Positions 4,874-29,047 of a stretch of DNA of 43,800 nucleotides are shown here, in pieces. The DNA is taken from positions 4,550 through 48,349 of the forward strand of contig JAUMXZ010000002.1 of the NCBI GenBank assembly GCA_030528905.1. The letters are read 5' to 3'. The first letter of the stretch is position 1. Each line of letters opens with the position of its first letter. The notes beneath the pieces were generated by a model. The model worked only from the letters and a program-made list of their open reading frames with translations. It made no database searches and was not told the DNA's origin. This DNA comes from Clostridia bacterium. Its GTDB lineage: Bacteria; Bacillota; Clostridia; Oscillospirales; Acutalibacteraceae. The position numbers and the translations under genes were made by a program.

Positions 4874-5111
4874 AACGCTGCACCTCCTTGTAGCACAACA
4901 CTATACCGTCATATTCCCGAAAAGTCCAGTTGTTTTCAAACTGTTTTTTCGAACAAAGATGCAAAGTGCCGGGTGGAAGTTTGCATTGTTACCTTGCAAT
5001 GTTGATTGAGAATCTTGAAAAACATGAAATTTAATCACTTTTCAGAAAAAGGTAGAAATATATACAAAAATGTGATATAATAAAATATCTCTCATATGGA
5101 GAAGGATAAAA

Positions 5112-5879: not shown

Positions 5880-5881
5880 TC

Positions 5882-6289: not shown

Positions 6290-6310
6290 CAACACCGCTC
6301 GTTTTCTTTA

Positions 6311-7723
6311 TTAATCAAATAAGGTTAACTGTTCTGCAGCGTTATTCGTTGCAGAGATTTTTGCCAAAACAGCTTCCATTTGCGAACACCACGTTACATC
6401 ACTGGTGTTTTTATAGCGCGAAAACTCATAACTATTATGATGCTCATCGGGAGTGCCATTCATATCGTTTATAATAGTACGCGCAATTGCTTCTCCTAAT
6501 CTTATAGGAACAGCATTTCCGATTTGCTTATATTGCTCCAATACAGGACCGCAAATTTTCCAATCCAAGGGGAATCCTTGGATACGACTATATTCTTCGA
6601 CACTTAACGGCCTATCTAATGTTGGATGACACAAATCAGTTGCGGGCATGGTGGGGTTTGTCACCAGTGTAGGCGAAGGTCTGTCAAATTTAAGCCTTCT
6701 CAAAAATCCTGTTTTACCGCCACCTAATTGCAATTTGCTTCCCATTGCTTCTACTTGTAAATCTGGAGGTAAATCTTTCCAATACTGACCCTCTTTTAAT
6801 ATACGATAAAAACGAAGGCGTTTTTCAGGAAATTCAATATAATGGTGTTCAGTATTATCCGGCAGTTCATCTAATGCCTCTCTTAAGGTTCTCCAGGGTT
6901 CAAGACCATTGTTTCCGTTTTCCGCGTGTGTAGGCGTGAGATACGCAACCTTTTCCTTGCCTAATTTACCGATCATAACAACTCTTTCTCGGATTTGAGG
7001 AGCACCATAATTCGCTGCGTTATAAAGGTTGAAGCTGACGGTATAACCAAGTTCTTTTAATTTATCCAGTATTACCAACAATGCGCCACCCTTGATTGGT
7101 TCGGAAAATTCTTTGTAAGGATAGGTTGCGGATAATAATCCTCTTACATTTTCTATCACTACATATGTAGGTTTAATTTCCCCGACAATTTCAAGATATC
7201 TCAAAAAAACATTTCCTCGAGCATCTTCAAAGCCCTTTCTGTTACCAGCGGTACTAAAAGCTTGACAAGGGGGGCCACCGAAAATAACATCTACCTTTGT
7301 TCCCTCGGGCAAATTGGCCATTTTCATAATTTCTTTTGAAGAATACTTTTCGATATCGCCAATCAATGCAATGTCAGGGTTGTTTTTTGCTATTGTCATA
7401 CGGCAAAATTTATTAAATTCGCAAGCTAACACTGCATCAATGCCACCGTTTTTCATTCCAATATCAAGGCCCATTGCACCAGAGAAAAAGCTCATAGCGA
7501 CAATTTTGGGCAGCACAAGACTCTCTCTCATTCTATCGTCCGGTTCTATCATAACATCATTATCACTAATGTAGGCTTCAAGTGCACTTTTGGAAATGAG
7601 CCATTGACTTCCGACTCTTTCAGCCGGGAGGTTTTCATTTCTAATAAGCGTTCTTACGTGTTGGGTTGTTACTTTCAGAATACTTGACGCTTCATTTACA
7701 GTAATAAAATCCGACAAAGGCAT
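6311..7723 (-). CDS. DNA (cytosine-5) methyltransferase with N-terminal HTH
   Basis: A 470-residue C5-cytosine methylase that transfers methyl from SAM to DNA. Residues 5-52 are an excisionase/MerR-like HTH (VNEASSILKVTTQHVRTLI). The methylase follows: motif I FSGAMGLDIG (80-89), motif IV GGPPCQAFS with the catalytic Cys (153), motif VI ENV (191-193), motif VIII QIRERVVMIG (243-252), IQGFPLDW (381-388) and motif X QIGNAVP (400-406). The extreme C-terminus QLTLFD resembles a sliding-clamp-binding motif. It has its own promoter (7767-7795) and lies behind a terminator that ends the helicase operon. It could be the partner of the TdeIII-like endonuclease, the DruM of a Druantia type II system, or both. 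Methylase identity is certain; the recognition site cannot be read from sequence. Confidence 0.93.
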   Translation of the reverse strand: MPLSDFITVNEASSILKVTTQHVRTLIRNENLPAERVGSQWLISKSALEAYISDNDVMIEPDDRMRESLVLPKIVAMSFFSGAMGLDIGMKNGGIDAVLACEFNKFCRMTIAKNNPDIALIGDIEKYSSKEIMKMANLPEGTKVDVIFGGPPCQAFSTAGNRKGFEDARGNVFLRYLEIVGEIKPTYVVIENVRGLLSATYPYKEFSEPIKGGALLVILDKLKELGYTVSFNLYNAANYGAPQIRERVVMIGKLGKEKVAYLTPTHAENGNNGLEPWRTLREALDELPDNTEHHYIEFPEKRLRFYRILKEGQYWKDLPPDLQVEAMGSKLQLGGGKTGFLRRLKFDRPSPTLVTNPTMPATDLCHPTLDRPLSVEEYSRIQGFPLDWKICGPVLEQYKQIGNAVPIRLGEAIARTIINDMNGTPDEHHNSYEFSRYKNTSDVTWCSQMEAVLAKISATNNAAEQLTLFD

Positions 7724-13167: not shown

Positions 13168-14179
13168 TATGACCCTCCGTAACACTCATTCCTAAATTAT
13201 TTAATTTCCTCTTGATTTCATCCAGCAAACAAAGAGGAAAATTCCACTCCAAAACATCGTTAATGTTCCGACTTGGCCAAGCATAGGACTCCAGAAAAAC
13301 TCTCATTTCATAAGGCAAATGTGTCCATAAATTTAGAGTAGCGTGGTCATTATGCTTTGTTATTCGAGTCGGTAAAGGTGCGTTAGCTTTCTTGCGAAGA
13401 GCAAACATCATTTTACGGTGTTCTTTGATCTCCAATAAAAATGGATCTATTTTGTGGTGATAAATGTTTTCGCCTTTGACTTTTTCGAGATAATACTCAT
13501 ACATTGTTTTGTTGATTGTTATTCGTATAAGCCGTATATTCTGGAAGAAATCAACTTCATTTTTTTGCCAACAAGAATGTATATTTTTTGCATTTTTAAC
13601 ACAGTTGAAATACTCAATACTATCATTTTTAATGCGCCCATTTTCCCACCAAGCTGTTTTGCAAAACTTATCGAACCAATCAACCGCTGTTTCATCATCG
13701 TTAGCAACATCTTGATTTGTACTTTTCCTAATAGCGGAGAGTCCTGAATAAAAAATGCCACCATCAAAAAACACACCCGTGATTTGCTCGGCCTCCAGAC
13801 CGATTGGATACGTAGCACTCGATGTCGTAATCATATTAGTATCAAAGCCAACATTTATAAGATCTCCGTTTTGAACTAAACGACGGCGAATGATACGAAT
13901 GGGATCTTCGGATTTATCATCCATATAGAACCAATATTTTATCTCAGGGTAGCGTTCTAACATAGCCGATAAAAGTTTCTCGGTTTTTTCGTAAATATGC
14001 TTTTTGCTTACACCTGTATCAATATTCTTATCTCCGATGTTACGATCAAGGGCGGCGGCTTTAATCCAGCAAGCTGTTGCAGAATACAAAATACGTTGCA
14101 CGAACTCTAAATCGGTTTCACTATTATATTTTGCTATATTCATGTCCGTTGCCATTGCTGCGATTATTTCGCCCCTCAT
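13160..14179 (-). CDS. uncharacterised defence-operon protein (339 aa)
   Basis: A 339-residue, probably soluble protein. I recognise no domain. Visible features are a helical N-terminus, an aromatic central part (KYWFYMDDKSEDPIRIIRRR), a Gly/aromatic FFDGGIFYSGLSAI segment and a basic region KEHRKMMFALRKKANAP. ATG 14179 is chosen because GAGGTGA lies 6 bases upstream; a GTG one codon earlier is possible. The gene begins 11 bases after the 689-aa gene and overlaps the helicase gene by 8 bases. Such tight coupling indicates a subunit of the same system, possibly an adaptor for the helicase. No catalytic motif is evident. Confidence 0.7.
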   Translation of the reverse strand: MRGEIIAAMATDMNIAKYNSETDLEFVQRILYSATACWIKAAALDRNIGDKNIDTGVSKKHIYEKTEKLLSAMLERYPEIKYWFYMDDKSEDPIRIIRRRLVQNGDLINVGFDTNMITTSSATYPIGLEAEQITGVFFDGGIFYSGLSAIRKSTNQDVANDDETAVDWFDKFCKTAWWENGRIKNDSIEYFNCVKNAKNIHSCWQKNEVDFFQNIRLIRITINKTMYEYYLEKVKGENIYHHKIDPFLLEIKEHRKMMFALRKKANAPLPTRITKHNDHATLNLWTHLPYEMRVFLESYAWPSRNINDVLEWNFPLCLLDEIKRKLNNLGMSVTEGHNG

Positions 14180-14190
14180 CACATATCACC

Positions 14191-16260
14191 TCACAGGTAG
14201 TTGTTTAGAATATCAATATTTATATTATTCTCACTTAACCAATCTCTCATTTGCTCCGTCTTATAACTTGCTTTAGCTTGAACGCATAGTTGTAATAAAA
14301 GCAACCAATCCTTATGAATATCACATTCAATATCAACCATAAAGCTTGCATATTTGGATGCGGCAACTGCACTGATAATTCCGGCGTCCACAAAAGGATT
14401 CAGTTTTTTCTTTTGTTTACAAAGATCGACTTTGCTGTATACTTTTATGAAAATCGAATGGTGCGCACTATAACAAGTCAATTCTTCACCAGTTGGGAAG
14501 TTGTAACCATAACCGCTGTCTAAAAACATCGCTTTTTCGTACACAGTTTTGGGGATTAGGCTCGTGTCCGCTCCGTCTAACGAGAAAAGAACAACATATC
14601 CGGCGTTTGCAAAATGATACCGGATAGCGTTAAAATGTTCCAATGAAAAGCCGGAGAAAGCTCCATTCACCAATATAACCATATTGTCGTTTTTGTTTTC
14701 GACAATCGAAATATAGTCGGTAGCGTTCATTCCCGAACCTATATTTACAACTGAAACATCCGTGCCATACATTGCGGCAACGCATTTCGCAATTTCATCT
14801 TCATTGGATGTTACCAAAATAGGCAACTGTGCAGAAATGCTATGGGAAATCAACTGTGCCATTGCATCAGCAACAGTATCTTCATACCCAACCGTAATTA
14901 AATTATCCGCCAAAGCTTCCTGGAAATCATCATAGTCATTTATCTGCTCTTTGTCACCAGACGCACCCGTTTCAATAGTGCAAAGATCTATTGATTTTTG
15001 TTTTCCGCTACCGCTACCGATTGCACTTTGAGCTATAGCGCACAAAGCGGTACTATGGACGATATTCTCTTTGAAATTTTTCAGTTCGGTTTCGATATCT
15101 GCTTGAATTTTAATAAGCTCTTCTTTTTTTGTTGCAACAGCGGTTTCGAGAGAAGAAACTTCACTACTAATAGCATCTCTCTGTTCTTTTTTTGTTAGAA
15201 GATCAGCCTCACATTCAGTACACGTCTTTTTAAGTTCGGCTATTTCATCCAATATCTGCTGCTTTTCTTGTGATTTTTCTTCGAGCCAGGCGGTCCTTAC
15301 GAGTTCAACAAAACGCTCGTGCATAGACGGATCCTGTGTCAAGCATCTTTGCAAAATTGCATCGATCGTAGAATCACCTAAAAGACTCTCGACGATAATT
15401 TGCTTATATTTGGGCAACAATTCTTTTAGCTGAGCATCCGTAAAACCAGTAATCGCAAAAAAATCACGAATGTATTCGTTATCATTCAGGATAACTTCGA
15501 GAACATCTGTAATTTTGCGAATGTCATTAAGACTAAACTGAAGAGTGCTTTTGTTTTTCTTGATATAGTTGGATACAAAAGTAGGAACATATTTGCTGAA
15601 TGCAATAGGATGGAAAATGCCAATGCGATCCGGCAAAACAGTAGAGTTGTAAAAATATCTAACCGGTGCTTTATATCTACTCGGCAAGGAAATGTGACAC
15701 GCAGACGAATCGATTATATCAGCGTCTACAATATCATACTCCTCCAAATAATGCACCGAGTGAAGCATATCGCGCGTATTTGAAGACACCGCGAAAACGC
15801 CATCTCGTACCTTCTTTAAGTCGCGTTTTCTGCACAACAGGAAAGCATTATGCGAACCCGATTTACCAATAGCGATAAGAATATTATCGCTTATATTGTC
15901 ATCCATAGAGAATCCTTCGCACAAAATCCTTCGTATCTCGTTTGTATCCGAATAAGGAACTTCGCTCAATTCTTCAGGGAATATCATTTCATAAACAGTT
16001 CCGTCATAACTATAAGAACGAGTTCTTCCTGGGTCTTCTGCATCATATTCCCACTCCCTTAAAGCGGTCATGCCAGGATAAATATCTCTCGGATGTGCAC
16101 CTATGCGTTTAGGTGTTTCACCGTATTCTTCCTCATAAAAAGGAACTGCTAATAGCTTATCATCGTCCGGATAGTAATCCGCAATTCTAAACAGAATGTT
16201 ATAGTCCGGGTTATTATAATTTGGATATGTAAGGCATAACGAAATCTTAGTATCATTCAT
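14191..16260 (-). CDS. uncharacterised coiled-coil defence protein (689 aa; DruF/DruG candidate)
   Basis: A 689-residue protein with an N-terminal mixed domain (1-230), a helical stretch, a long charged coiled coil at about 326-400 (LDEIAELKKTCTECEADLL and onward), and a C-terminal alpha/beta domain (about 440-640). That domain has beta-strand-like hydrophobic runs (ILVTSNEDEI, NMVILVNGAF, YVVLFSLDGA) reminiscent of a P-loop or Rossmann fold, but no Walker A motif is visible. The start at 16260 has GAGGAAC upstream and lies 1 base after the previous stop. In Druantia type II two proteins without known domains (DruF, DruG) accompany DruE and DruM, and this is a candidate for one. That assignment rests on size and context only. 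Confidence 0.7.
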   Translation of the reverse strand: MNDTKISLCLTYPNYNNPDYNILFRIADYYPDDDKLLAVPFYEEEYGETPKRIGAHPRDIYPGMTALREWEYDAEDPGRTRSYSYDGTVYEMIFPEELSEVPYSDTNEIRRILCEGFSMDDNISDNILIAIGKSGSHNAFLLCRKRDLKKVRDGVFAVSSNTRDMLHSVHYLEEYDIVDADIIDSSACHISLPSRYKAPVRYFYNSTVLPDRIGIFHPIAFSKYVPTFVSNYIKKNKSTLQFSLNDIRKITDVLEVILNDNEYIRDFFAITGFTDAQLKELLPKYKQIIVESLLGDSTIDAILQRCLTQDPSMHERFVELVRTAWLEEKSQEKQQILDEIAELKKTCTECEADLLTKKEQRDAISSEVSSLETAVATKKEELIKIQADIETELKNFKENIVHSTALCAIAQSAIGSGSGKQKSIDLCTIETGASGDKEQINDYDDFQEALADNLITVGYEDTVADAMAQLISHSISAQLPILVTSNEDEIAKCVAAMYGTDVSVVNIGSGMNATDYISIVENKNDNMVILVNGAFSGFSLEHFNAIRYHFANAGYVVLFSLDGADTSLIPKTVYEKAMFLDSGYGYNFPTGEELTCYSAHHSIFIKVYSKVDLCKQKKKLNPFVDAGIISAVAASKYASFMVDIECDIHKDWLLLLQLCVQAKASYKTEQMRDWLSENNINIDILNNYL

Positions 16261-16261
16261 T

Positions 16262-17881
16262 TTATAAGTTCCTCCTCAGAGTGCTTAAATAAATCGCAAG
16301 CTGTTCGTTAATTTTTCCGTCTTTGAGTACCTGTTTCAAAAATGCACCCAATTGATGCAAACTATGAATATCACACCAATGAAACAGTTCTTTAATCCAT
16401 AGCGGTGCTGTAATAACAGAGCCTCTTAAATTCTTTTTCGCCTCAGATAACAGTAATTGTTCATCTATATCCAAATCTTTTTGAGGTGCGTTAACAGCAA
16501 AGGAATGAAAAATCACATACCCATATGGAGAGGATTCGTATGAGAAAAACATTCTTTTTAGTCCCTTGTATGGTTCTAAAGTGGTCTGCGTATCAACAAT
16601 CGGTATGGTTTTGAACACGTGATTTGCAGATTCAAAAACGGCAGAAAACTTTGTGTTGGTTCTAATATTTATGCCATCCTGCAATATGTTGGCATCTACA
16701 AACAGTGTTGTGTCAATTGTTTCTTCGTTTTCTGTTGACAAAACAATATTGTGAGATGCCACAGAACGAATAGGGGATGTTTTTCGGATACTAATTTCTC
16801 GACCAGTATATTTTCTGTCGACTGACACAACAGTTGGCTCGAAGCTATACACGCCCAGTTTGACAGTTTTATTATTATGATAATCTTCGTCAACTGGAAT
16901 TTGTCGTACATCTTTTCCGCTGTAAGTGAAAACTTTAGGGGTGCTATTACCGCTTTCCACACCACAATAAACAGTTGCCTTATTCGAGAAAACCAATTGA
17001 TCACCATGATCAATTATGGGCGGCCAAAGAGGTAAAACTGTCGCAGCCTTTTCCAATAGCCAAACCTTAAACCTACTGTAAAAGTAACTGTTAATGCTAT
17101 TGAAACGACTATTTTCAACAGAAACATTTATGCTAAAAATATACACTCCATAATCGCTGTTGTTCAAATGTATACGCCCAATTTTGCGAGTGCGAATTTC
17201 TTGATAAAACGGTCTGAAATCTTTAGCTATTAAATAATACTCTTTTTCGATGGTGATACTGTCACCACGTTTGATTTTTTTACCAAAGTTATTATGTATT
17301 GAAAAAATTGCACCTTCAGAAGAAAACCCGTCAGCATAATCGGACCATTTCTTTTGTATTGCATAAGCTCCAACACCGGATATTTCAATGGTATAATTTT
17401 TTCCATAATACGGAATGAAGTCAATAGGAATAGGCGTTATTTCATCCGCATAGAATTGCGACGGTGTAACTGGAACTGTTAACTTGCCATTAATGGATAC
17501 TGTAAGTTTATTGTTATAAGCCTGCTGAAGGCGTTGTTCTCCAAGCGCTGGGAATGCAATATTGAGATTATATATATCTCCGTATTTGCGTGTGATATAT
17601 ATAGGGAGACCTGTTCTTTCGTAAATATGTAAATCAGAATTCCCGTCTACTCGCTTATCGCACTCGGGAGAAAAATCGGTCTTCTTTTGGTGATAGAAGA
17701 CATCTGGTTGCTGACCTCCGCGGCAACGCCAAAAAACCTTTTCTTGACATTCTGGACAAAAGAAACGATCGTGTTTTCGCGGGATGTATCCACCGCGATA
17801 TTGTTCATATATGTCGGATGCAGAAACTTCAATTTCTTTACCTTCTCGATCATTAACGAAACGGTCAATAGCATATTTCAC
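16262..17881 (-). CDS. uncharacterised defence protein with N-terminal CoiA-like Cys/His cluster (539 aa)
   Basis: A 539-residue protein. Its N-terminus has a putative zinc site: FCPEC (Cys 42 and 45), WRCRGG (Cys 53), VFYH (His 64) and SPEC (Cys 74), followed by LHIYERTGLPI. This resembles the zinc-ribbon module seen before the nuclease domain in CoiA-like proteins. The rest is beta-rich, and I see no PD-(D/E)XK motif. The start is GTG 17881 with GGGAGGTG upstream. It is the first large gene of the operon behind the XRE gene and is followed by the 689-aa gene after 1 base. It is a candidate DruF/DruG equivalent and may sense or bind DNA; that is inference. Confidence 0.7.
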   Translation of the reverse strand: MKYAIDRFVNDREGKEIEVSASDIYEQYRGGYIPRKHDRFFCPECQEKVFWRCRGGQQPDVFYHQKKTDFSPECDKRVDGNSDLHIYERTGLPIYITRKYGDIYNLNIAFPALGEQRLQQAYNNKLTVSINGKLTVPVTPSQFYADEITPIPIDFIPYYGKNYTIEISGVGAYAIQKKWSDYADGFSSEGAIFSIHNNFGKKIKRGDSITIEKEYYLIAKDFRPFYQEIRTRKIGRIHLNNSDYGVYIFSINVSVENSRFNSINSYFYSRFKVWLLEKAATVLPLWPPIIDHGDQLVFSNKATVYCGVESGNSTPKVFTYSGKDVRQIPVDEDYHNNKTVKLGVYSFEPTVVSVDRKYTGREISIRKTSPIRSVASHNIVLSTENEETIDTTLFVDANILQDGINIRTNTKFSAVFESANHVFKTIPIVDTQTTLEPYKGLKRMFFSYESSPYGYVIFHSFAVNAPQKDLDIDEQLLLSEAKKNLRGSVITAPLWIKELFHWCDIHSLHQLGAFLKQVLKDGKINEQLAIYLSTLRRNL

Positions 17882-18299: not shown

Positions 18300-18530
18300 A
18301 TGTTTAACATTAGAAAAGAAACATTAGAACGCTTACGAAAGGCATACCCCACAGGGGCAAGAGTGGAACTTGTGCAAATGAGCGACCCGTACAAAACCAG
18401 GTTATTTCCAGGTGCGAGAGGGACGGTTGTTTTGGTAGATGATATCGGAACCGTTCACGTTCGGTGGGATTGTGGTTCATCCCTTGGTGTGGTTTATGGT
18501 GAAGACCTATGTCGTGTCATTAAAGAATAA
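18300..18530 (+). CDS. DUF4314 small protein
   Basis: A 76-residue protein with the DUF4314 pattern: GARVELVQMSDPYKTRLFPG, then GTVVLVDDIGTVHVRWDCGS and a C-terminal YGEDLCRVI. It is a small beta-barrel-like domain common on Firmicute mobile elements, with unknown function. AAAGGAGG precedes the ATG. It is divergent from the defence operon and convergent with the XRE gene at 18669-19091, with a shared terminator between, so it may mark the left part of the mobile element. Confidence 0.85.
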   Translation: MFNIRKETLERLRKAYPTGARVELVQMSDPYKTRLFPGARGTVVLVDDIGTVHVRWDCGSSLGVVYGEDLCRVIKE

Positions 18531-18668: not shown

Positions 18669-19091
18669 TTATTTACTCTTATTTATGCGAATGCTCAATG
18701 CAATATCTTCCGTGTTACATATGCTCTGCTGCTCATGACAGCGGAGCTTTTCTGCTTTTATAAGGCTTTCGACAGCAGTTTTGCCATACTCATCAAGGGA
18801 AAGATATGCCATTATGATTTCTCTGAATTGATCCTCTACTTCCCAACGACCGAGCTGATCAATGTCTTCTTCGGTAAAACGAGGAGATGATGCATCATTG
18901 GAATAACCCAAAATATAATCGATACGTTTATCAAAAATATCGGAAAGGCGATTTAATGTTTCAAAGTTCGGTTCTCGCTTACCGATCTCCCACATTGCAA
19001 CGGTTCCTTTAGAAACACCCAATGCCTCTGCAAGCTGCACCTGGGTCATGTTTTTATCTTTTCGTAACTCTTTTAATCTTTCAGCAAACAT
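18669..19091 (-). CDS. XRE-family repressor of the mobile element
   Basis: A 140-residue protein. Residues 1-65 are a Cro/CI-type HTH (MTQVQLAEALGVSKGTVAMW, then GKREPNFETLNRLSDIF); the rest is helical with DEYGKTAVESLIKAEKL near the C-terminus. The start at 19091 has GGAGGTG 7 bases upstream; the frame from 19127 would begin within the promoter region. It is transcribed away from the excisionase-primase operon, the usual position of an immunity repressor in temperate elements. Repeated TGTGAG/CTCACA half-sites lie in the shared control region and are likely its operators (inference). Confidence 0.85.
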   Translation of the reverse strand: MFAERLKELRKDKNMTQVQLAEALGVSKGTVAMWEIGKREPNFETLNRLSDIFDKRIDYILGYSNDASSPRFTEEDIDQLGRWEVEDQFREIIMAYLSLDEYGKTAVESLIKAEKLRCHEQQSICNTEDIALSIRINKSK

Positions 19092-19114
19092 AATTTTGCA
19101 CCTCCGATGTATCA

Positions 19115-19143
19115 ATAATACCACCATCTGTGAGTTTTGTCAA
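19115..19143 (-). promoter_or_regulatory. promoter of the XRE repressor with operator half-site
   Basis: On the minus strand TTGACA (19138-19143), a 17-base spacer containing CTCACA, and TATTAT (19115-19120). The half-site in the spacer suggests autorepression. Confidence 0.75.
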
Positions 19144-19206
19144 TGGTTTTCTCACTAAATAAGATACAATACGAAAAAATATTTTAACAAAGTGTGAGAT
19201 TTGCTA

Positions 19207-19262
19207 TTGACAGAGATAACTAAATGTTGTATCATATAGAACGAAATCTCACAGTTAGTGAG
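19207..19262 (+). promoter_or_regulatory. early promoter and operator of the mobile element
   Basis: TTGACA (19207-19212), a 17-base spacer and TATCAT (19230-19235). Just downstream CTCAC-N5-GTGAG (19248-19262) forms a palindrome over the start of the transcript. Further half-sites lie at 19151-19155 (CTCAC) and 19192-19198 (TGTGAGA region). This is a lambda-like divergent switch in miniature. Confidence 0.75.
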
Positions 19263-19440
19263 TTTCGGCATTCCTTGACAACTGAATACCCTACACGCAA
19301 AAGATACACAGAAATTAAATGCCACGACGCTGCAAACGGTCCCACCCGAGCGTATCTGTGCAAACGAGGAGTCCTCGAGCAGGAGGCTACCCCGGAACCA
19401 TAGCGTTGTAGGCCAAAACAAACCAATACTAAAGGAAGGA
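19263..19440 (+). ncRNA. candidate structured RNA leader upstream of excisionase-like gene
   Basis: About 180 bases without a gene lie between the early promoter and the first ORF. CCACGACGCT (19322-19331) can pair with AGCGTTGTAGG (19402-19412) with one wobble and one bulge, enclosing a hairpin CGAGG-AGT-CCTCG (19365-19377) and other GC-rich segments. AGATAC/GTATCT can add another helix. The region is markedly more GC-rich and structured than the other leaders here. I do not recognise a named RNA family. It could be a regulatory leader, a replication primer or a recombination-related RNA. Confidence 0.45.
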
Positions 19441-19451
19441 GTTAAATCATT

Positions 19452-19634
19452 ATGGAAAAATCAACAATGAGCGTTCAGGAGTTATCCGCTCACATGGGTA
19501 TCAGCCTACCGAAGGCATATGAGCTTGTGAAAGAACCAGGATTCCCAACACTCCGTATCGGCACTCGCATCTTGATTCCGGTTGAAGGTTTTAAGGCTTG
19601 ACTCCGATCAAAATCCGAAAGCGGTGATGAATAA
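19452..19634 (+). pseudogene. excisionase/AlpA-like HTH protein with in-frame TGA
   Basis: The frame begins MEKSTMSVQELSAHMGISLP and continues KAYELVKEPGFPTLRIGTRI, an excisionase/AlpA-type helix-turn-helix DNA-binding protein. It reaches TGA at 19599-19601 after FKA, giving 49 residues. Reading on gives LRSKSESGDE and TAA (19632-19634), which overlaps the ATG of the next gene as TAATG. In this family the position is normally Trp (FKAWL-type), so TGG has probably become TGA. The overlap with the next gene supports the longer original frame. AAGGAAGGAG is upstream. The shortened protein keeps most of the HTH and may still work. It would direct excision with the serine recombinases or control the operon. 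Confidence 0.7.
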
Positions 19635-21895
19635 TGAATGAAAGTATCACCGTGTATTACGCCGATGTATGCGGCAACCCACAAAACTGTCAGTATCCCC
19701 ATAAGGGAACGGCATCCGCTCCCGAACAGTTGAAACGCTGTATGGCTCGGGATCACGTGTTCATCCGTTTTGACGGCAACTACCGAAACAGCAAGAACTT
19801 CGAAGAAGCCGTTACCGCTGTTTTTGATTGCGATAACGACTTTACGGAAAATGCTGCGAAGTGGATTTCCCCGGAAGATATCTATCGGCTGTTTCCCGAT
19901 GTTTCGTGTGCGGTCAGCACCAGCTGACACCATATGAAACAGAAAGGTGGCAAATCACCACGTCCCAGGTTTCATGTCATCTTCGCAATCGAACCTATTA
20001 CAGACCCCGCCGAATACACCGCTTTTATGAAGTCGGTACAGCAGATGTATCCCTTTTTCGATGACAACGCCTTGGATGCCGCCAGGTTCTTTTTCGGCAA
20101 TCCCGATACCGAGGTTACATTCTTTGAAGGCAGAACTACCTTAACCGCATTCATTGAAGAGAAGTCTGCGGAGAGGGCGTTTGCCGAGCTGGGCGAAACC
20201 ATTATCGAAGGCAGCCGTAACAACACGATGTCCCTCTTCGCAGGAAAATTGCTTAAGCGGCTCGGAGATACAGATGAGGCACACAATAAATTTCTTGAAC
20301 GCGCCGAATCTTGCACCCCACCTTTGGAGGATGGTGAGCTTGAAACCATATGGCAAAGCGCCAGAAAGTTCTATAAGAAGGTGTGCTCTCAACCGGGATA
20401 CATTGCCCCCGAGGAGTACAACGCACCCTCACCGATGAAGTGGGAAATGCCGATACCTTTTGAAAAAGCAAACCTACCGTCTTTTCCGATAGAGGCTTTG
20501 CCGAAGGTTGTCCGTGATTATGTAACAGCGGTAACAGAAAGCACACAGACTCCCGTGGATATGAGTGCTTCGGCGGCACTTGCCATTCTTGCGCTGTGTG
20601 AACAAGGAAAGTTCCGCATTCGCGGCAAGTCGGATTGGACAGAACCGCTGAACCTTTTTGTGGTAGTGGTAGCGGAGCCTTCAGAACGAAAGAGTGCCGT
20701 CATCAGCTTAATGACCCGTCCCATAAATGCATTTGAAGCGGACTATAACCGACAAAACGCAGCCGAACTTGAAAAAAGCAAAATGAACAAGAGAATCTTG
20801 GAACGTCGGCAAAAAGCCCTGGAGGACAAAGCTGCCAAAGGCAAAGTTGAGGATGGTGAGTTGGAGCAATTCGCACAGCAACTTGCTGCGTATAAGGAAA
20901 AGACACCTCTTCGTTTGTATGTGGATGATGTAACCACCGAAAAGCTCACCGCTGTTTTAGCAGACGGCGGCGGTAAGGCGGCCATCGTATCTGCCGAGGG
21001 TGGTATCTTCGATATGCTTTCGGGCATTTACAGCAAAAACGTCAATATCGACGTTATGCTAAAAGGTCACTCCGGCGACAGTATCCGTGTGGACCGTATC
21101 GGCAGAAACAGCGAAAGTATTATGAATCCTGCGCTGACGGTTCTGCTTATGGTACAGCCGAATGTGTTGTCGGGAATGATGCAAAACGGCACCTTCCGTG
21201 GCAGAGGCCTTACGGCAAGATTTCTCTATTGTATGCCCAAATCCATAGTCGGCAACCGCAGATACAGGATCGAGCCGATTCCGGCAGAGATAGCAAGGCA
21301 ATATGACCTGCTTATTCGCAATCTCCTGGAAGAGGAACAAGGTGAAACTCCCGAGGAAATAACCTTGACCCCGGAAGCGGATGAAATGCTTGAAGCCTTT
21401 TCCTACGAGGTGGAAGCCAAATTGAAGACCGAATATGCGGATATGGCGGATTGGGCAGGTAAGCTTGTCGGTACAGTCCTCCGCATTGCAGGTGTTTTAT
21501 GCCGAGCCTCGGTTTATCGCAACAACGGATTCTTGGAATCTGTCGAACCCTTGATGGTGGATGAACCCACAATGCAAAACGCTATCTCAATCGGCAGATA
21601 TTATACAGAGCATTCCGCTGCGGCATTCTCCCTTATGGGTGCAGATGCCCTGGTAAAGCAAAGCGAGTATATGCTGGATGCCATTTGCAAAAGCGGTCTT
21701 ACGGAATTTACTCGCCGTGACATTATGCGACTTTGTCGCAGTTTCAAAACAGCCGATGAAGTACAGCCGGTACTGAACCACTTAACCGAATACAGATACA
21801 TTGCCCCTAAAGCGATCGACTCCCAAAACAGCAAAGGCAGACCTGCCGGTCAAACCTATCTTGTCAATCCTTATCTCTATGAGAAAGCATCATAA
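19634..21895 (+). pseudogene. DUF3987 primase-helicase, split by in-frame TGA
   Basis: Two frames in the same register, 19634-19927 and 19934-21895, together encode about 753 residues of a replication protein. The N-terminal part (FDCDNDFTENAAKWISPEDI, then PRPRFHVIFAIEPI) is primase-polymerase-like. The C-terminal half is a DUF3987 ATPase with Walker A-like AEPSERKSAV, Walker B-like LYVDDVTTEKL, SAEGGIFDMLSG and RGRGLTARFLYCMP. The break is TGA at 19925-19927 between STS and HHMKQKGGK. A CGA-to-TGA change (Arg in SRHHM) is the simplest explanation. No further stop occurs in 1.9 kb. Reinitiation at ATG 19934 would give a helicase without an intact primase domain. The role is replication of the excised element. 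Confidence 0.75.
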
Positions 21896-21900
21896 ACAAG

Positions 21901-22307
21901 TTTTGTCCTTTATGTCCCTTTGTCACAAAGGTATGGGAATAAATAAAAATATAGAAAAAGTAATCGTTAAACTACTGCTTTCTATATACGGATGTTTACC
22001 CACATTCCCACGCTTACGGACAGCGTGACAAAAAGGACATAAATATTGGAAGGAGAAAAGGATATGGCAGAGATTGATGCAAAGCGGTACACCACTGTAA
22101 AGGTCATACCGCTGAATGAAGGTAGTGCCATCGTGGCATACGGCAATTATACCGCTGATCCAAGGTGGCATTTACTATATGAAAACCAGAGTAAAACATT
22201 TGACAACTTCAGCCAACTTTTCGAGTATTGCAACGCCAGGTTCAAGAAACCCTTCGGAGGTGTCTTATAGTGCGTTGTTCTGATATATGTGACAAAAAAG
22301 GACAACA
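21901..22307 (+). repeat. three copies of a TGACAAAAAGGACA-type motif
   Basis: TGACAAAAAGGACAT (22026-22040) and TGACAAAAAAGGACAACA (22290-22307) are direct copies. A denser inverted block with TTTGTCC/TTTGTCA units spans 21901-21925. All fall in the short gaps around the 68-aa gene, after the primase. They may be iterons of the element's origin or operator sites. A hairpin CACGCT/AGCGTG (22009-22027) adjoins the second copy. Confidence 0.45.
22064..22270 (+). CDS. small hypothetical protein of the mobile element (68 aa)
   Basis: A 68-residue soluble protein (MAEIDAKRYTTVKVIPLNEG at the start; FDNFSQLFEYCNARFKKPFG near the end). I do not recognise a family. AAGGAG lies upstream of ATG 22064; an in-frame TTG at 22046 would sit before the ribosome site. 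It sits between motif copies after the primase and before a 114-aa gene in the same operon. Confidence 0.65.
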   Translation: MAEIDAKRYTTVKVIPLNEGSAIVAYGNYTADPRWHLLYENQSKTFDNFSQLFEYCNARFKKPFGGVL

Positions 22308-22335
22308 GAAACAAATAATAAAAGGAGATGTAAGT

Positions 22336-22680
22336 ATGTATAAAACTAAAAAGGACTATGCCCAGGATAAGCTTTGCCGTGAAATCGGCAATGGATGTCG
22401 TATTCTTCGTGTTGATGGAGAACGGTGCATTTACCGTGACTTCGGTAACGGATTTAATGTGGAGGTCAGCGGAACACACACCACAAGCAAGCGTAGAAAA
22501 GCATTTATCTTTTTGTGGTACGGGAGTGCGTTCACGATTACGTGCATAAAGGAAGTGCCGTTCTCTGAAATCGGTAACGTGATAAACAGGCTCTACGATT
22601 ACACTTGTGAGCTTTGTCGCACCGGTGCCGCCACGGAAAAGAACCTCGGCGAACTTCGATACGAACGTCCGCAGGTTTGA
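22336..22680 (+). CDS. small hypothetical protein of the mobile element (114 aa)
   Basis: A 114-residue basic protein starting MYKTKKDYAQDKLCREIGNG, with a beta-rich middle (CRILRVDGERCIYRDFGNGF) and CELCRT near the end. No domain recognised. AAAGGAGATG precedes ATG 22336. It is followed directly by the GC-rich tandem repeat upstream of the capsid gene, so it ends the replication/control part of the operon. Confidence 0.65.
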   Translation: MYKTKKDYAQDKLCREIGNGCRILRVDGERCIYRDFGNGFNVEVSGTHTTSKRRKAFIFLWYGSAFTITCIKEVPFSEIGNVINRLYDYTCELCRTGAATEKNLGELRYERPQV

Positions 22681-22687
22681 TGCAGAT

Positions 22688-22860
22688 ACCCCCAGGGGGT
22701 CTTAATCTCCGGGACTAAACCCTGTGCAACGGGCCAGGGGTTTTGTGAAGAAATTCGCATAAGTTTTTCGGGGGAATACCCCCGGGGGTGGTCAAATCTC
22801 TACGACCTTTCGCCTGTGCAACGGGCGTGGGGTCTCACGCAAAAAATCGCGAAATCAAAC
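22688..22860 (+). repeat. two-unit GC-rich tandem repeat, possible cos/packaging site
   Basis: Two degenerate units of about 90 bases each begin with a near-perfect palindrome, ACCCCCAGGGGGT (22688-22700) and ACCCCCGGGGGT (22778-22789). Each then has AATCTC and CCTGTGCAACGGGC (22721-22734 and 22813-22826), followed by a GGGGT run and an AT-rich tail with TCGC. This 230-base gap between two co-directional genes holds no convincing gene; an open frame runs through unit 2 in phase with the capsid gene. GC-rich palindromes beside a capsid gene recall phage cos regions. That is inference; a leader control element is another option. Confidence 0.5.
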
Positions 22861-22913
22861 GGGGTATTAACCCCAAAATCAAACAAACCAAAATTATGGA
22901 GGTATTTTATACT

Positions 22914-23930
22914 ATGAAAACAGCAAGAACCTATGAAGAACTCAAAGCATGTCTGGACGAAATGTCCGGCAAAACCGCCGAAAAGCAGGCGGATAAAACT
23001 GCAGAAGCCAAGAAGAAAGCCGAAGCATACAACACTGCTTTCTGGGAAACTATGCACACCGGTATGCCACAGAATGCATTAAAGGAAGGTAGTGACGGCT
23101 CAGGCGGCTACCTTGTTCCCGATACTTATGACGATAGACTTGTGCAGGCATTAAAGCAAAAGAATGTCCTTCGTCAAATTGCCACTGTCGTTCCTACAAC
23201 GCAAAAATTAATTATTCCCATTTCCTTGGGAGAAGAAAACGCAAGCTGGATGCCGGAGAACGAGCCATACACGTTTTGCGAAGCTGAATTCGGTCAAATC
23301 GAGATCGATGCATATAAGCTCGGCAGCTCTATTCTCGTTTCTGATGAACTGCTTGAGGACGGTGGTGTTGACCTTGAAAAACATATCGAGGAAGCCTTTG
23401 CGCACCGAATCGGCAATGCTGAGGAATCTGCCTTTATCCGAGGAGACGGAAACGGAAAGCCGATTGGCCTTATCCATCAGGCGTATGTTGATAAGGTTAC
23501 AGATGAAATCGGAAAAATCAGTGCGGATGATCTGGTCGATATGGAGTTTTCTTTGGCAGAAGCTTATCGCAAAAATGCGGTGTGGGTTATGTCCAACGAT
23601 GCATATTGCAGACTTGGACAGCTGCGCCATTATCGTGGCAATCCTATTTGGAGTAACGGGCTTAATGAGGAAATGCCTATGAAGCTGTTCGGCTATCCCG
23701 TTTACATTTGTAACCATATGGATGATGTCATTCCCGGTGGCATTCCGGTAATGTTCGGTGATTTCAGTTACTACTGGATCGGCGACCGCGGCAAGAGAGT
23801 CATTAAACGCTTGGTAGAATGTTACGCTGATCACGGGCAGGTTGCCTTTATCACCACCGAGCGTGTGGATGCAAAGCTCGTCCTTCCCGAAGCGGTGAAG
23901 ATGCTTAAGGTCAAGAGTGATAAGGAATAA
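22914..23930 (+). CDS. HK97-fold major capsid protein
   Basis: A 338-residue phage major capsid protein. After a short charged helix (TYEELKACLDEMSGKTAEKQ) come the HK97-type core marks: GGYLVPDTYDDRLVQALKQK (about 65), NVLRQIATVVPT, SWMPENEPY, KLGSSILVSDELLED (spine helix), AFIRGDGNGKPIGLI and MFGDFSYYWIGDRG (P domain). Typical HK97 capsid proteins carry about a 100-residue delta domain cut by a protease; here only about 55 residues precede the core and no protease gene is present. The start at 22914 has GGAGGT upstream; an open frame from 22788 runs through the repeat. No portal, terminase or tail gene is next to it. It may build small capsids for a satellite, or be a captured gene. Confidence 0.9.
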   Translation: MKTARTYEELKACLDEMSGKTAEKQADKTAEAKKKAEAYNTAFWETMHTGMPQNALKEGSDGSGGYLVPDTYDDRLVQALKQKNVLRQIATVVPTTQKLIIPISLGEENASWMPENEPYTFCEAEFGQIEIDAYKLGSSILVSDELLEDGGVDLEKHIEEAFAHRIGNAEESAFIRGDGNGKPIGLIHQAYVDKVTDEIGKISADDLVDMEFSLAEAYRKNAVWVMSNDAYCRLGQLRHYRGNPIWSNGLNEEMPMKLFGYPVYICNHMDDVIPGGIPVMFGDFSYYWIGDRGKRVIKRLVECYADHGQVAFITTERVDAKLVLPEAVKMLKVKSDKE

Positions 23931-23938
23931 GGTTAAGT

Positions 23939-23966
23939 GGGAGGGCGGCTTTCGGGTCGCTCTCCC
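23939..23966 (+). terminator. hairpin after the capsid gene
   Basis: GGGAGGGCG (23939-23947) pairs with CGCTCTCCC (23958-23966) with one wobble, loop about 10. There is only a weak T run after it, so it probably reduces rather than stops transcription into the recombinase genes. Confidence 0.5.
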
Positions 23967-23998
23967 TTACCTTTATAGTCATAGGAAGGAGATATGCC

Positions 23999-24373
23999 AT
24001 GACACTACAAAACAAAATCGCCATTAACAATATGCGGCTTGAGGGGCATAACCCTTCCGTGATTGCTGCCACTTTAGGATTGTCTGCCGGGACCGTCCGT
24101 GCTCACATTCACAGATACCCGGAGATACCGAACACCAAGCTTTGCAAGAACTGCGGTAAACCCGTGCTTCAAACAGAAAAGCGCAGAGAGAAAAAGTTTT
24201 GTTCGGACAGTTGCCGAATGATGTGGTGGAACACCCACCGGGACTCGGTCAACCGCAAAGCCTATTATAATCTTACCTGCGAATACTGCGGAAAGGAGTT
24301 TGAGAGCTATGGAAACAAAAACAGAAAATACTGCAGCCGAATCTGCTACGTTGCGTCAAGACAAGCAGGATAA
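23999..24373 (+). CDS. HTH and zinc-finger DNA-binding protein (124 aa)
   Basis: A 124-residue protein. The N-terminal 45 residues form a sigma-region-4-like HTH (GHNPSVIAATLGLSAGTVRA). Two Cys4 zinc motifs follow: CKNCGKP...FCSDSCR and CEYCGKE...YCSRIC. GGAAGGAG precedes ATG 23999. Such proteins are frequent beside serine recombinases in Clostridia elements and may act as directionality or transcription factors; that role is inference. Its 3' end overlaps the next gene by 65 bases. Confidence 0.75.
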   Translation: MTLQNKIAINNMRLEGHNPSVIAATLGLSAGTVRAHIHRYPEIPNTKLCKNCGKPVLQTEKRREKKFCSDSCRMMWWNTHRDSVNRKAYYNLTCEYCGKEFESYGNKNRKYCSRICYVASRQAG

Positions 24374-24536
24374 ATACGCAACCGAAAATATGATGCTGTA
24401 CCGAACCTCCCTGGCTCTTCTCAAGAGCCTTACGGAGGAGGACACTTTTACGGAAAAAGAGTATCGTAAGATATGCACAATACTCACGAAGAAATACGGA
24501 TTATCTTCGGGTAGTATATTTGCGGAATCTGCTTGA
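24309..24536 (+). CDS. SHOCT-like recombinase-associated protein
   Basis: A 75-residue protein with a C-terminal SHOCT-like helical motif (FTEKEYRKICTILTKKYGLS) after YRTSLALLKSL. The start METK at 24309 follows AAAGGAG and lies inside the preceding gene in another frame, so translation is coupled. This small gene regularly precedes large serine recombinases in Firmicute elements, from memory of similar loci; its action is unknown. Confidence 0.7.
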   Translation: METKTENTAAESATLRQDKQDKYATENMMLYRTSLALLKSLTEEDTFTEKEYRKICTILTKKYGLSSGSIFAESA

Positions 24537-24597
24537 TATATCCGCCGTTTAGAGCGAATATGTAGTGACCTTAATTGATACAAAGGAGGTAAATGTA

Positions 24598-25878
24598 TTG
24601 GAAAGGATCGTTACACAGACTCGTTTTGCCAAAACGGAATTGCCGAGAGCAAAACGGGTGGCGGCATACGCCAGAGTATCTTCCGGTAAGGATGCGATGC
24701 TCCACTCGCTTTCCGCCCAGGTGAGTTATTACAGCAAATTGATACAGAATCACGGCGGATGGGAGTACGCAGGCGTGTATGCCGATGAAGCTTTAACCGG
24801 TACAAAAGACAACCGAGAAAACTTTCAAAGGCTCCTTGCGGATTGCCGAAATGGAAAGGTGGATATGATTTTAACCAAGTCCGTTTCGCGCTTTGCAAGG
24901 AATACGCTAACCTTACTCGAAACCGTAAGGGAACTAAAGAATCTGGGTGTGGATGTTTACTTTGAAGAGCAAAATATTCATTCGGCAACCTCGGACGGTG
25001 AGCTGATGCTGACCATCCTCGCAAGCTATGCCCAGGAGGAAAGCCTCTCCGCCAGCGAGAATCAAAAGTGGCGGGTACGGCAACAGTTCCAAAATGGAAA
25101 ACCCTGGCGCGGTTTTATGATGGGTTACCGCTACGATGGAGAGAAATACGTCATCGTTCCTGAAGAAGCCGAGGTGGTTCGTTCCATCTTTCGTGACTAC
25201 CTTGATGGCAAGGGCGTTGTCGCCATTATGAAACGGCTCAATGAAGAAGGAATACTCACACAGCAGGGCTGCACCTGGCATCAAAGCGCCGTGAGCCGAA
25301 TCCTTCGCAACTACGCCTACACGAGCAATCTTCTGCTTCAAACCAAATTCCGTGAGAATCACCTCACAAAACGCACCTTGGTAAATCACGGAGAGCTTCC
25401 GCAGTACCACGCAGAGAACAACCACGAGCCGATCATTGATATCGGCACCTATAACTTGGTACAACTGGAAATGGCAAGACGAGCGGAGCGGTTTTCAAGG
25501 CCACAAACGAAAACAGAATACCCTTTTACGGGACTTATCACCTGCGCCGGATGCGGAAAGCATTACCGCAGAAAAGTAACGAAAATGGGCCCCGTATGGA
25601 TATGTTCGACCTACAACACCCAAGGCAAGAAATATTGCCCATCGAAAGCCATCCCCGAACCTACTTTGATGGCACTTGCCGCTGAGATTGATAATTTCAG
25701 TAAAATAACGGCAATTACAGCCGACAAAGATAACACCTTGATATTCTCCCTTGAAAACGGAGAAACAATCGTTAAACGACGGAAAGACCGCTCCCGCTCG
25801 GAAAGTTGGACTCCCGAGATGAGGGCAGCGGTCGGTAAGAAAACAAAAGAAAGGAGTAAGCAAAATGACAACAGCTAA
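24598..25878 (+). CDS. large serine recombinase 1
   Basis: A 426-residue serine site-specific recombinase. The resolvase domain has AAYARVSS with the nucleophilic serine, DMILTKSVSRFARN and ILASYAQEESLSASEN. The recombinase domain follows (GFMMGYRYDG, VRSIFRDYLDGKGVVAIMKR), then a zinc ribbon CAGC...CS...C (about 320-355). The start is TTG 24598, 8 bases after AAAGGAGG; an in-frame GTG at 24565 lies before that site. It has only a short C-terminal tail and lacks the long coiled coil of the second recombinase. Its 3' end overlaps the next gene by 14 bases. It would cut and join attachment sites through a phosphoserine link. Confidence 0.9.
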   Translation: MERIVTQTRFAKTELPRAKRVAAYARVSSGKDAMLHSLSAQVSYYSKLIQNHGGWEYAGVYADEALTGTKDNRENFQRLLADCRNGKVDMILTKSVSRFARNTLTLLETVRELKNLGVDVYFEEQNIHSATSDGELMLTILASYAQEESLSASENQKWRVRQQFQNGKPWRGFMMGYRYDGEKYVIVPEEAEVVRSIFRDYLDGKGVVAIMKRLNEEGILTQQGCTWHQSAVSRILRNYAYTSNLLLQTKFRENHLTKRTLVNHGELPQYHAENNHEPIIDIGTYNLVQLEMARRAERFSRPQTKTEYPFTGLITCAGCGKHYRRKVTKMGPVWICSTYNTQGKKYCPSKAIPEPTLMALAAEIDNFSKITAITADKDNTLIFSLENGETIVKRRKDRSRSESWTPEMRAAVGKKTKERSKQNDNS

Positions 25879-27454
25879 AAATGTGACCGTAATACCCGCC
25901 ACACGAAACTTGCACACGGGTATCCCTACCACCTCAAAGGCAAAACGCAAGGTCGCAGGTTACGCCCGTGTATCCACCGACAGCGATGAACAGTTCACAA
26001 GCTATGAGGCGCAGGTGGATTACTATACAAACTACATCAAAAGCCGTCCCGAATGGGAATTTGTCGAGGTCTATACGGATGAAGGTATCTCCGCACTCAA
26101 CACCAAAAAGCGTGACGGCTTTAACCGAATGATAGCCGATGCCCTAAACGGCAAAATTGACCTCATCGTAACCAAGAGTGTAAGTCGCTTTGCCCGTAAT
26201 ACCGTGGACAGCCTCACCACCGTCCGCAAACTAAAGGACAAGGGCGTCGAGGTGTATTTTGAAAAGGAAAATATATGGACTATGGATTCCAAGGGAGAGT
26301 TGCTTATCACGATTATGTCATCCCTTGCCCAAGAAGAGAGCCGTTCCATTTCCGAGAATGTAACCTGGGGACAACGCAAACGCTTTGCAGACGGCAAAGT
26401 CAATATGCCGTACAAACAGTTCCTGGGGTACAAAAAAGGTGCAGACGGTCTGCCCGAAATCGTTCCCGAAGAGGCAGAAATCGTTCGCAGCATTTACCGA
26501 ATGTTTGTGGAAGGTATGTCGGCAGGATCTATTGCAAAACACTTGACCGAAAACGGTGTACTCACGCCTTCCGGGAAAACAGTATGGCAACGGCACACGA
26601 TTGAGAGCATTCTTCAAAACGAGAAATACAAAGGCTCGGCACTTTTACAAAAGAAGTACACCGTAGATTTCCTGCAGAAAAAGATGAAGATCAACGAGGG
26701 TGAAGTTCCGCAGTACTATGTGGAACACAGCCATCCCGCTATCATCGCACCGGAAGAATGGGAACGAGTTCAGTTGGAACTGAAACGCAGAAAGGATAGC
26801 GGCAGGCGCACCTTTTCCACCAGCCCCTTTGCCGGGAAACTCCTCTGCGGAGATTGCGGTGAGATCTTCGGCTCAAAGGTGTGGCATTCCAACAGCAAAT
26901 ACCGCCGAACCATATGGCAATGTAATGCAAAATTCAAGGGTGACACCATATGCGATACACCGCATTTGTATGAGGATGATATCAAGGAGCTGTTCGTGGT
27001 AGCATTAAGCAAGTTACTTGTTGACCGAGAAGCGCTTCTTGAGGACGGCAGGCTCATCCGCCACGAGCTGATGGATACCGCTGCGATCGATACAGAATGC
27101 GAGGAACTCCTCCAGGAGATAGACGTGGTCGCGGGTCTCATCCAAAAGTGCATCAACGAAAATGCCGTAAAAGCTATCGACCAAGATGAATATATCAGCC
27201 GATATAACTCCCTGGTGGAACGCCACGAAAAGGCGCAAAACCGCTATGACACCTTGCAGAAAAAACGTGACCGCAGGCTCATCCAGGCAGACATTATGAG
27301 CGGATTTCTTTTCGCCATCACCGAACTGGATACCCTACAGCTTCAATTCAACCCACCCCTCTGGCATACCACCGTTGACCATGTAACCGCATACGCAGAT
27401 GAGCGTTTAGTGTTCCATTTCAAAAACGGCAGCGAGGTTGAGGTGAGGATATAA
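25865..27454 (+). CDS. large serine recombinase 2
   Basis: A 529-residue serine recombinase. The resolvase domain has AGYARVST with the nucleophilic serine, DLIVTKSVSRFARN and SLAQEESRSISEN; the recombinase domain has FLGYKKGADGLPEIVPEEAE; the zinc ribbon has LLCGDCG...WQCNAKFKGDTIC (about 325-365). A coiled-coil insertion (ECEELLQEIDVVAGLIQKCI and onward, about 405-470) is used by such enzymes to control direction. It starts 14 bases inside the first recombinase gene. Two tandem recombinases probably act as a heteromeric integrase, as in other Clostridia elements. A strong terminator ends the operon. Confidence 0.9.
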   Translation: MTTAKNVTVIPATRNLHTGIPTTSKAKRKVAGYARVSTDSDEQFTSYEAQVDYYTNYIKSRPEWEFVEVYTDEGISALNTKKRDGFNRMIADALNGKIDLIVTKSVSRFARNTVDSLTTVRKLKDKGVEVYFEKENIWTMDSKGELLITIMSSLAQEESRSISENVTWGQRKRFADGKVNMPYKQFLGYKKGADGLPEIVPEEAEIVRSIYRMFVEGMSAGSIAKHLTENGVLTPSGKTVWQRHTIESILQNEKYKGSALLQKKYTVDFLQKKMKINEGEVPQYYVEHSHPAIIAPEEWERVQLELKRRKDSGRRTFSTSPFAGKLLCGDCGEIFGSKVWHSNSKYRRTIWQCNAKFKGDTICDTPHLYEDDIKELFVVALSKLLVDREALLEDGRLIRHELMDTAAIDTECEELLQEIDVVAGLIQKCINENAVKAIDQDEYISRYNSLVERHEKAQNRYDTLQKKRDRRLIQADIMSGFLFAITELDTLQLQFNPPLWHTTVDHVTAYADERLVFHFKNGSEVEVRI

Positions 27455-27524: not shown

Positions 27525-28659
27525 TTAATGTCTGAAATATTCTTCTAATGCATCTTTCATTTCAGCGTCTGCATCTTCTTCACAATCAGTAAAAGTCGAG
27601 GAGCCTTCGCTTATATCTACACAAACATTGAATCTTACATTCAGTTTAACATCATCCACTTCAACAAAACTCAAATGCTCTTCTGAATCAAATTTAATCA
27701 AAATATCGCATTCAACTTCCGCCAATGCTTCTTCAAAAGACACATTACTATATGCGGTAAAAATGTAAGCTCTATCCTCTTTATCCCAAATAGATCTATC
27801 TTCGTCCAAAATTGTGGCATAACCAGAAATTTCAAATTCCGCTGTTGTTCTTATTAATACACTATCTTCAGTAATTTTTAACGGTATAAACAAATCACTA
27901 ACAGACTTTACTTTAATATTTGAAATTTCAGGATCATCTACTGTTTCATACCCCATTAGTTCAAATGCTTCAAGATCTATTAAAGATAAAATCTGCTTTT
28001 GAATTTCAGGTAAAGCCTCGTTGAAAATAGGCACTAATTCATCGCAATTCTGTAATGTACGAATTCCTTCTCCTATACTTTTTGTGAGGATTGCACGCGA
28101 AATACCAGATAGTGCTTTTTCCCAATCGGGATCATCAGAAATTATTAGCACGCACTTTGATGGATGCGATTGAATGTACTCTTTCAATGCAAGAAGTATG
28201 AAAGCATCAGGGAACTCGCTTTTTTTTGTTTCCACTGGAAGAAAACGGGGGTTCAGTAGCAAAATATTGTTCAAATATTTTTTCAACATCAGGATACGGC
28301 AATTCAACCGCTTTTTTATATTCTAATTCAAAAGCTTCAGTTAATTTGGAATGTAAATTCAAGTCATCAATTGAAGCGGTTATTTCATCGGCAGAGCAGT
28401 TGACCAGAGAAAAAACATCCTTGTATTTTCTCAACAAAACTTTCAAATTGGATAATTTACTAATAAGCTCCGATTCTCCGATATGCTTTTTGATTTCACC
28501 TTGTAACACTGGGTGTGACAAAAGTATTATTTTTCTTTCTTTTAACAAATCGAAAAAAGCGAGAAGAATTTTGTTATAAACCCCGATAAAGTCGCATTGT
28601 TCTTTATGATAAGCAGATGTATCGACAATAACAGCATCGATAGGACTCCAAGCGCCCAT
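27525..28659 (-). pseudogene. PIN-domain protein (DUF4935-like), frameshifted at an A8 run
   Basis: The upstream frame (28207-28659) encodes IDAVIVDTSAYH, ILLSHPVLQGEIKKHI and onward. It is the N-terminal half of a PIN-type RNase domain with the first acidic residue in VDTS. The downstream frame (from about 28227 to 27525) continues SEFPDAFILLALKEY and VLIISDDPDWEKAL, carrying the remaining PIN acidic residues, then about 170 residues of beta-rich sequence. The switch occurs at eight A residues on the minus strand (28220-28227); seven would restore one frame of about 377 residues. It may be a recent mutation, a base error, or a site of transcriptional slippage. PIN proteins usually cut RNA and often act as toxins or in phage defence. 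No antitoxin gene is beside it. Confidence 0.75.
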
Positions 28660-28886: not shown

Positions 28887-28927
28887 ATAAGTGCTTATTC
28901 TATCTATGTTTTTTGCGGTAAAATAAC

Positions 28928-28965
28928 GATACCGCTGTCGACACGATTGTATCAACAGCGGTATC
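28928..28965 (-). terminator. terminator of the initiator tRNA
   Basis: GATACCGCTGT (28928-28938) and its reverse complement (28955-28965) lie directly 3' of the tRNA on the minus strand and are followed by TTATTTT. Confidence 0.7.
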
Positions 28966-28970
28966 TGTTT

Positions 28971-29047
<77 letters not shown>

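Follow-up and report, generated by a model that had tools for sequence, protein, structure and literature searches.

How could a mobile element make use of a phage capsid gene when it carries no other gene for a phage head? The question is raised by positions 18669-27454 of a 43,800-nt stretch of a Clostridia bacterium genome (contig JAUMXZ010000002.1; the whole stretch is called the window, and coordinates are window positions), for which a first-pass annotation had proposed a capsid-only mobile element, possibly a phage satellite. The satellite reading is supported here. The region is probably, and we hold this with good confidence, the core of a phage satellite operating in the manner of a cos-type phage-inducible chromosomal island (PICI), of the kind of the Staphylococcus aureus pathogenicity island (SaPI) SaPIbov5, combining the cos-like site of a helper phage with a short capsid protein. 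The reading is carried by the gene content and the absence of other head genes, by a capsid-only layout conserved in a monophyletic clade under purifying selection, by a cos-like motif, by genes for the small terminase subunit (TerS, terS) in relatives, and by placement at the ends of tRNA genes.

Pfam, PHROG and promoter matches place the repressor, divergent promoters, excisionase gene (xis), primase, HK97 capsid gene and tandem serine recombinases where they had first been read. The core, in which HTH denotes a helix-turn-helix, is ordered as follows:

18669-19127, minus strand: HTH_3 repressor, CI/Stl-like (Pfam HTH_3, 3.6e-17; PHROG transcriptional regulator, 1e-25; 97% identical in the relative L087)
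19115-19235, both strands: divergent promoter matches in the gap between repressor and xis, TTGACA-17-TATCAT and TTGACA-17-TATTAT (each an 11/12 sigma-70 match; consensus matches only)
19452-19628, plus strand: xis-like HTH gene (HTH_17, 1.1e-5), with an in-frame TGA at codon 50
19634-21895, plus strand: primase-helicase gene, rep (DUF3987, 7e-106; phrog_1883/2373, DNA helicase), with an in-frame TGA at 19925-19927
22064-22270, plus strand: small conserved gene o22064, in most relatives at 35-85% identity, with no match in Pfam or PHROG
22228-22680, plus strand: second small conserved gene, with a similar product in L087 and L004 and no match in Pfam or PHROG
22914-23930, plus strand: HK97-fold capsid protein with a shortened N-terminal scaffold region (PF05065, 3.8e-66)
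23999-24373, plus strand: HTH/zinc-finger protein (phrog_2308, 2.6e-38), kept in all relatives with sequence there
24300-24536, plus strand: small protein conserved in relatives, SHOCT-like by eye
24565-25878, plus strand: large serine recombinase 1 (Resolvase, Recombinase and Zn_ribbon_recom domains)
25865-27454, plus strand: large serine recombinase 2 (the same three domains)

Profile hidden Markov models for portal, protease, large terminase subunit (TerL) and TerS, built from a Pfam-verified complete prophage, had no match anywhere in the window, and the core contains no tail gene, in agreement with the absences first reported.

Looking for the same gene order in other genomes had been suggested as a check, and it was found in about 13 other loci, an estimate, since overlapping IMG/VR contigs may in some cases record the same element. 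A tblastn search with the element proteins against the fetched capsid loci recovered it in L087, L086, L084, L085, L088, L089, L082, L083, L002, L003, L004 and L005, some of which are partial contigs; L209, L240, L255 and L256 are further members, with L258 partial. The relatives lie in genomes from the rumen or gut and in contigs flagged as viral, and portal, protease and TerL are absent from them. Protease and portal genes stand beside the capsid gene in 142 of 160 capsid loci scanned. Twelve of the 18 loci lacking one or both are the element clade, and the other six, which begin near the capsid gene or retain the protease, are little informative; given adequate upstream sequence, the loci with neither gene are exactly the element clade. 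In a quick tree, with the prophage side drawn only from the nearest prophage relatives, the 12 element capsids, with identities down to 52%, separate from 13 prophage representatives with a support of 100 in the Shimodaira-Hasegawa-like approximate likelihood ratio test (SH-aLRT). Strong purifying selection acts on the element capsids, most pairs of which have a dN/dS of 0.07-0.14 and one pair 0.18; between the window capsid and its nearest relatives the value is 0.08-0.10. The gene is therefore kept for its protein. The first-pass annotation would have been abandoned had the homologues proved to be remnants of larger prophages, but the capsid-only layout is instead conserved within one clade under this selection. 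A lone prophage remnant is ruled out by the same two features, the clade-wide reduced layout and the selection.

The capsid protein itself is unusual at its N-terminus. The stretch ahead of the conserved GGYLVP motif is 61-71 residues long in the element family, whereas complete prophages have a median of 125, which bears out the short N-terminal arm first described; the scaffold region is about half the prophage length. The predicted structure, from a 49-sequence alignment, is an HK97 fold with a mean predicted local distance difference test score (pLDDT) of 84, and supersedes an earlier model from 12 sequences with a pLDDT of 46. The nearest solved folds are the capsids of the gene transfer agent RcGTA (Z 22.9) and of EcCI2 (9gyi, Z 21.1), a capsid-forming PICI (cf-PICI). 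The capsid profile reaches 7rwz, a 402-residue major capsid protein chain (8e-11), and matched no chain labelled Ccm. Encapsulins appear among the fold matches only as distant ones, and an encapsulin is ruled out by membership of the PF05065 phage capsid family, the PHROG assignment as major head protein, the adjoining packaging-type motif and terS in relatives.

By analogy, the closest working model is SaPIbov5 with its Ccm protein, and not a cf-PICI. SaPIbov5 carries the cos site of phi12 and encodes the capsid homologue Ccm, whose delta domain is 44 residues shorter than that of the helper (PMC8569155, PMC5052747). Ccm fills only the pentamers of small capsids and forms no capsid alone (PMC8569155), and by itself reduces helper titre (PMC5052747). 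Like SaPIbov5, the element has a single HK97 capsid homologue with a shortened N-terminal domain and lacks portal, protease and TerL, a combination characteristic of cos-type satellites; its repressor, xis and primase-rep order and its variable cargo are shared with the cos-type SaPIs. The likeness of its capsid to Ccm is one of form. The first-pass annotation had supposed that the element uses its own small capsid. A satellite whose capsid protein alone builds a complete small capsid, with portal, protease, terminase and tail borrowed, would be compatible with the strong selection on the gene and with a complete modelled fold close to the RcGTA and EcCI2 capsids, but Ccm, the best-studied analogue, makes pentamers only (PMC8569155) and the halved N-terminal region of the element protein resembles it, so that this explanation is unlikely. 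Because Ccm makes no capsid alone and has a similarly shortened N-terminal region, a Ccm-like role, in which the short protein would assemble together with the helper capsid or redirect it, seems the likelier one.

The element had also been described as unlike known capsid-forming satellites. This holds against the cf-PICIs, which encode a whole head and packaging set (PMC10690885): the element shares with EcCI2 the satellite character, an HK97 capsid gene of its own and a similar capsid fold, but has the capsid alone, with or without TerS, and does not belong with them. It does not hold against SaPIbov5, for which Ccm is a close precedent. The PICI gene order, a divergent repressor followed by xis and primase/rep on the other strand (PMC6092414), is present. 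In contrast, the usual integrase beside and co-directional with the repressor is missing, and tandem large serine recombinases occupy the far end on the other strand. The element differs from SaPIbov5 further in the terS genes of some relatives, in its anaerobic gut and rumen Clostridia hosts, and in carrying defence rather than virulence cargo. EcCICFT073 is another partial parallel, with no TerS, two cosN copies like its helper's and a putative capsid gene (PMC6092414), comparable with the two cos-like motif copies, capsid gene and missing TerS of the window element; however, it also encodes a head decoration protein, is enterobacterial and has AlpA-type control.

Upstream of the capsid gene lies a motif of about 90 bp in two tandem copies:

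22695-22783, plus strand: cos-like packaging motif, copy 1 (nhmmer profile match, E 1.1e-7)
22785-22874, plus strand: cos-like packaging motif, copy 2 (single-sequence nhmmer with shuffle control; shared 22-nt core)

As an nhmmer query, copy 2 matches DNA that directly precedes terS in 13 loci of complete prophages (L006-L011, L020, L024, L067, L092, L096, L097 and L140; E 1.4e-9 to 2e-4), and 30 shuffled versions of the query gave zero matches. Among 2.9 million virus contigs, only seven contain the exact 22-nt core: three contigs of this element and four phages, where it lies next to an HNH gene or where terS begins. Annotated gut phages have the order HNH, motif, next gene, and in HK97 the HNH protein stimulates cos cleavage while TerS binds just beside the cut (PMC11331095). 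The motif is called cos-like because homologous DNA directly precedes terS in complete prophages, and because of the HNH order and the HK97 precedent; the homology is observed, and the motif may well be the cos site cut in a helper-type phage. The HK97-type cos prophages of Bacillota (for example L006, L197 and the phage contig L207) have a homologous capsid (about 40% identity to that of the element) and a Terminase_4 TerS, and L006, L207 and others among them share the motif upstream of terS. Unlike the element, they have a full head module, with portal and protease beside a capsid of about 400 amino acids with a long N-terminal region. One phage contig (L207/L242) has the motif with TerS, TerL, portal, protease and capsid, and is possibly of the helper type. 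A Terminase_4-type TerS is encoded directly upstream of the capsid gene in L005, L084/85/86, L088, L089 and L256, and is not detectable in the window, L087, L002, L003, L004 or L240.

The motif copies are direct in the window, L003 and L240, and inverted in L087 (8781-8962) and L209 (5562-5744). Streptococcus prophages (L048, L127, L058 and others) have a weaker match 2.5-4.3 kb upstream of the TerS-profile hit. In L202 (12454-13147) the zinc-finger gene comes directly after a second cos-like motif, without an intervening capsid gene; this is possibly a related element from which the capsid gene was lost, or which has always lacked one.

These features suggest how such an element might live. 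The repressor would keep the satellite silent after the serine recombinases had inserted it at the 3' end of a tRNA or tmRNA gene. When a helper, an HK97-type cos phage, became active, the element would excise and replicate by means of its own primase-helicase. Helper terminase is proposed to package it, because it carries the helper's cos-like site, some relatives adding a TerS of their own. The short capsid protein would then join the helper portal, protease and terminase to give heads that are satellite-sized or that interfere with those of the helper.

The element extends beyond 18669-27454, the limits first assigned to it, reaching a tRNA-Met gene (28971-29047) on the right and probably about 4.4-5.0 kb on the left, and would then include a substantial cargo with Druantia and restriction-modification (R-M) genes:

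5112-7723, no strand assigned: left cargo, TdeIII-type restriction enzyme, ASCH protein and C5 methyltransferase
7903-17881, minus strand: left cargo, Druantia type I-like system of DruE, DruD, a weak DruC and a CoiA_N protein (PADLOC DruE1, E 0; DruD1, 7e-23; DruC1, 1e-6)
18300-18530, plus strand: DUF4314 gene (PF14192, 6e-30), also in the left flank of the L002, L087 and L209 elements
27525-28659, minus strand: right cargo, PIN_12 gene in two overlapping frames (PF16289 on both open reading frames, 27528-28307 and 28210-28659), probably split by a frameshift

The DUF4314 region has 82-83% DNA identity to L002 and L087. The relatives also carry defence-type cargo: DISARM-like helicase/MZB genes, methyltransferases, AbiH, and a Dam-type methyltransferase with a MutH-like nuclease. 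With defence genes placed in this way, and with Ccm by itself able to lower helper titre (PMC5052747), the capsid might have been kept only for its interference with phages, as part of a defence island that travels otherwise, by conjugative mobilisation or by its recombinases only. However, pure interference needs neither a packaging-site motif nor terS, yet both are retained, terS in several copies, and no relaxase was found among the proteins scanned, though no search was aimed at relaxases; this explanation is improbable.

The copy in the window has probably ceased to move, because both xis and rep carry stop codons. The two genes are present, as first reported, but each is interrupted by an in-frame TGA, that of xis lying at 19599-19601 and absent from relatives. 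L087 and other relatives have sense codons at both sites; xis is an intact frame of 60 codons in L087 and L209, and rep a single open frame of 753-759 codons in L087, L209 and L086. An alternative genetic code is rejected as an explanation for both codons, since relatives carry W at one of the positions and R at the other. The capsid gene and both recombinases are intact in this copy, which is probably unable to excise or replicate. That the locus is a fragment of cos region, terS and capsid left by deletion of a prophage and carried by an integrative element would fit these stop codons and the phage origin of the cos-like DNA and terS, but is very improbable given a monophyletic capsid clade that keeps the reduced layout across deep divergence, dN/dS of about 0.1, and rep and xis intact in relatives.

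Several observations weigh against the satellite reading. The two nonsense codons suggest decay of this copy. The host genome (99.5% complete, 1.4 Mb, 145 contigs), whose one PF05065 gene is the element capsid, gave no match to TerL, and to portal only one sub-threshold match, on another contig; no resident HK97 helper is therefore evident. The identification of the motif as cos comes from its position and conservation and not from a mapped cut, and L004 and L255 have no detectable motif. No empty insertion site was found, the genomes compared having no second member of the host genus. An element of about 24 kb, if that is its span, may not fit a strongly reduced capsid. Excision, helper dependence, packaging, and capsid interference or size change are all inferred. 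The portal-like gene (G000:C8:13516-14289) possibly belongs to another type of phage.

On balance, it is rather likely that the element represents a separate satellite family of gut Clostridia that has not been described before, mobilised by serine recombinases into the 3' ends of varied tRNA and tmRNA genes, packaged through a stolen helper cos with or without a TerS of its own, and carrying a Ccm-like short capsid and large defence islands; it would then be a second, independent origin of the lone-capsid-homologue strategy outside Staphylococcus. Literature searches for satellites with capsids that use a serine integrase or reside in Clostridia found no such element described, subscription papers lying mostly outside their reach. 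If this is so, cos-type satellites that sabotage helper heads through a capsid homologue would be found beyond Staphylococcus, in uncultured Clostridia of rumen and gut, and the strategy would be linked with how large defence systems (Druantia, DISARM-like genes, R-M) spread. It would also have a searchable signature, a short capsid without portal, a cos motif, tandem serine recombinases and a hairpin at a tRNA end, and comparison of members with and without terS could address what a satellite TerS does alongside a helper cos.

The ends of the element are best defined on the right:

28905-28970, no strand assigned: conserved right terminal hairpin, the putative attR, abutting the 3' end of tRNA-Met

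The hairpin abuts the 3' end of tRNA-Met in the window, in L004 and in the element of genome G010, of tRNA-Leu in L240, of tRNA-Arg beside L005 and of tmRNA in L089. Because it joins different tRNA genes and a tmRNA gene, recombinase targeting of the conserved T-arm/CCA end of tRNA-like genes is suggested. On the left, a search found no tRNA remnant; the leftmost segment in common with the G010 element (4478-5004, about 90% identical, with a small minus-strand gene inside) may mark the left end or a neighbouring element. The terminal hairpin is also seen in L198 and L182, and the right end of L082 diverges after a partial tRNA-like stretch.

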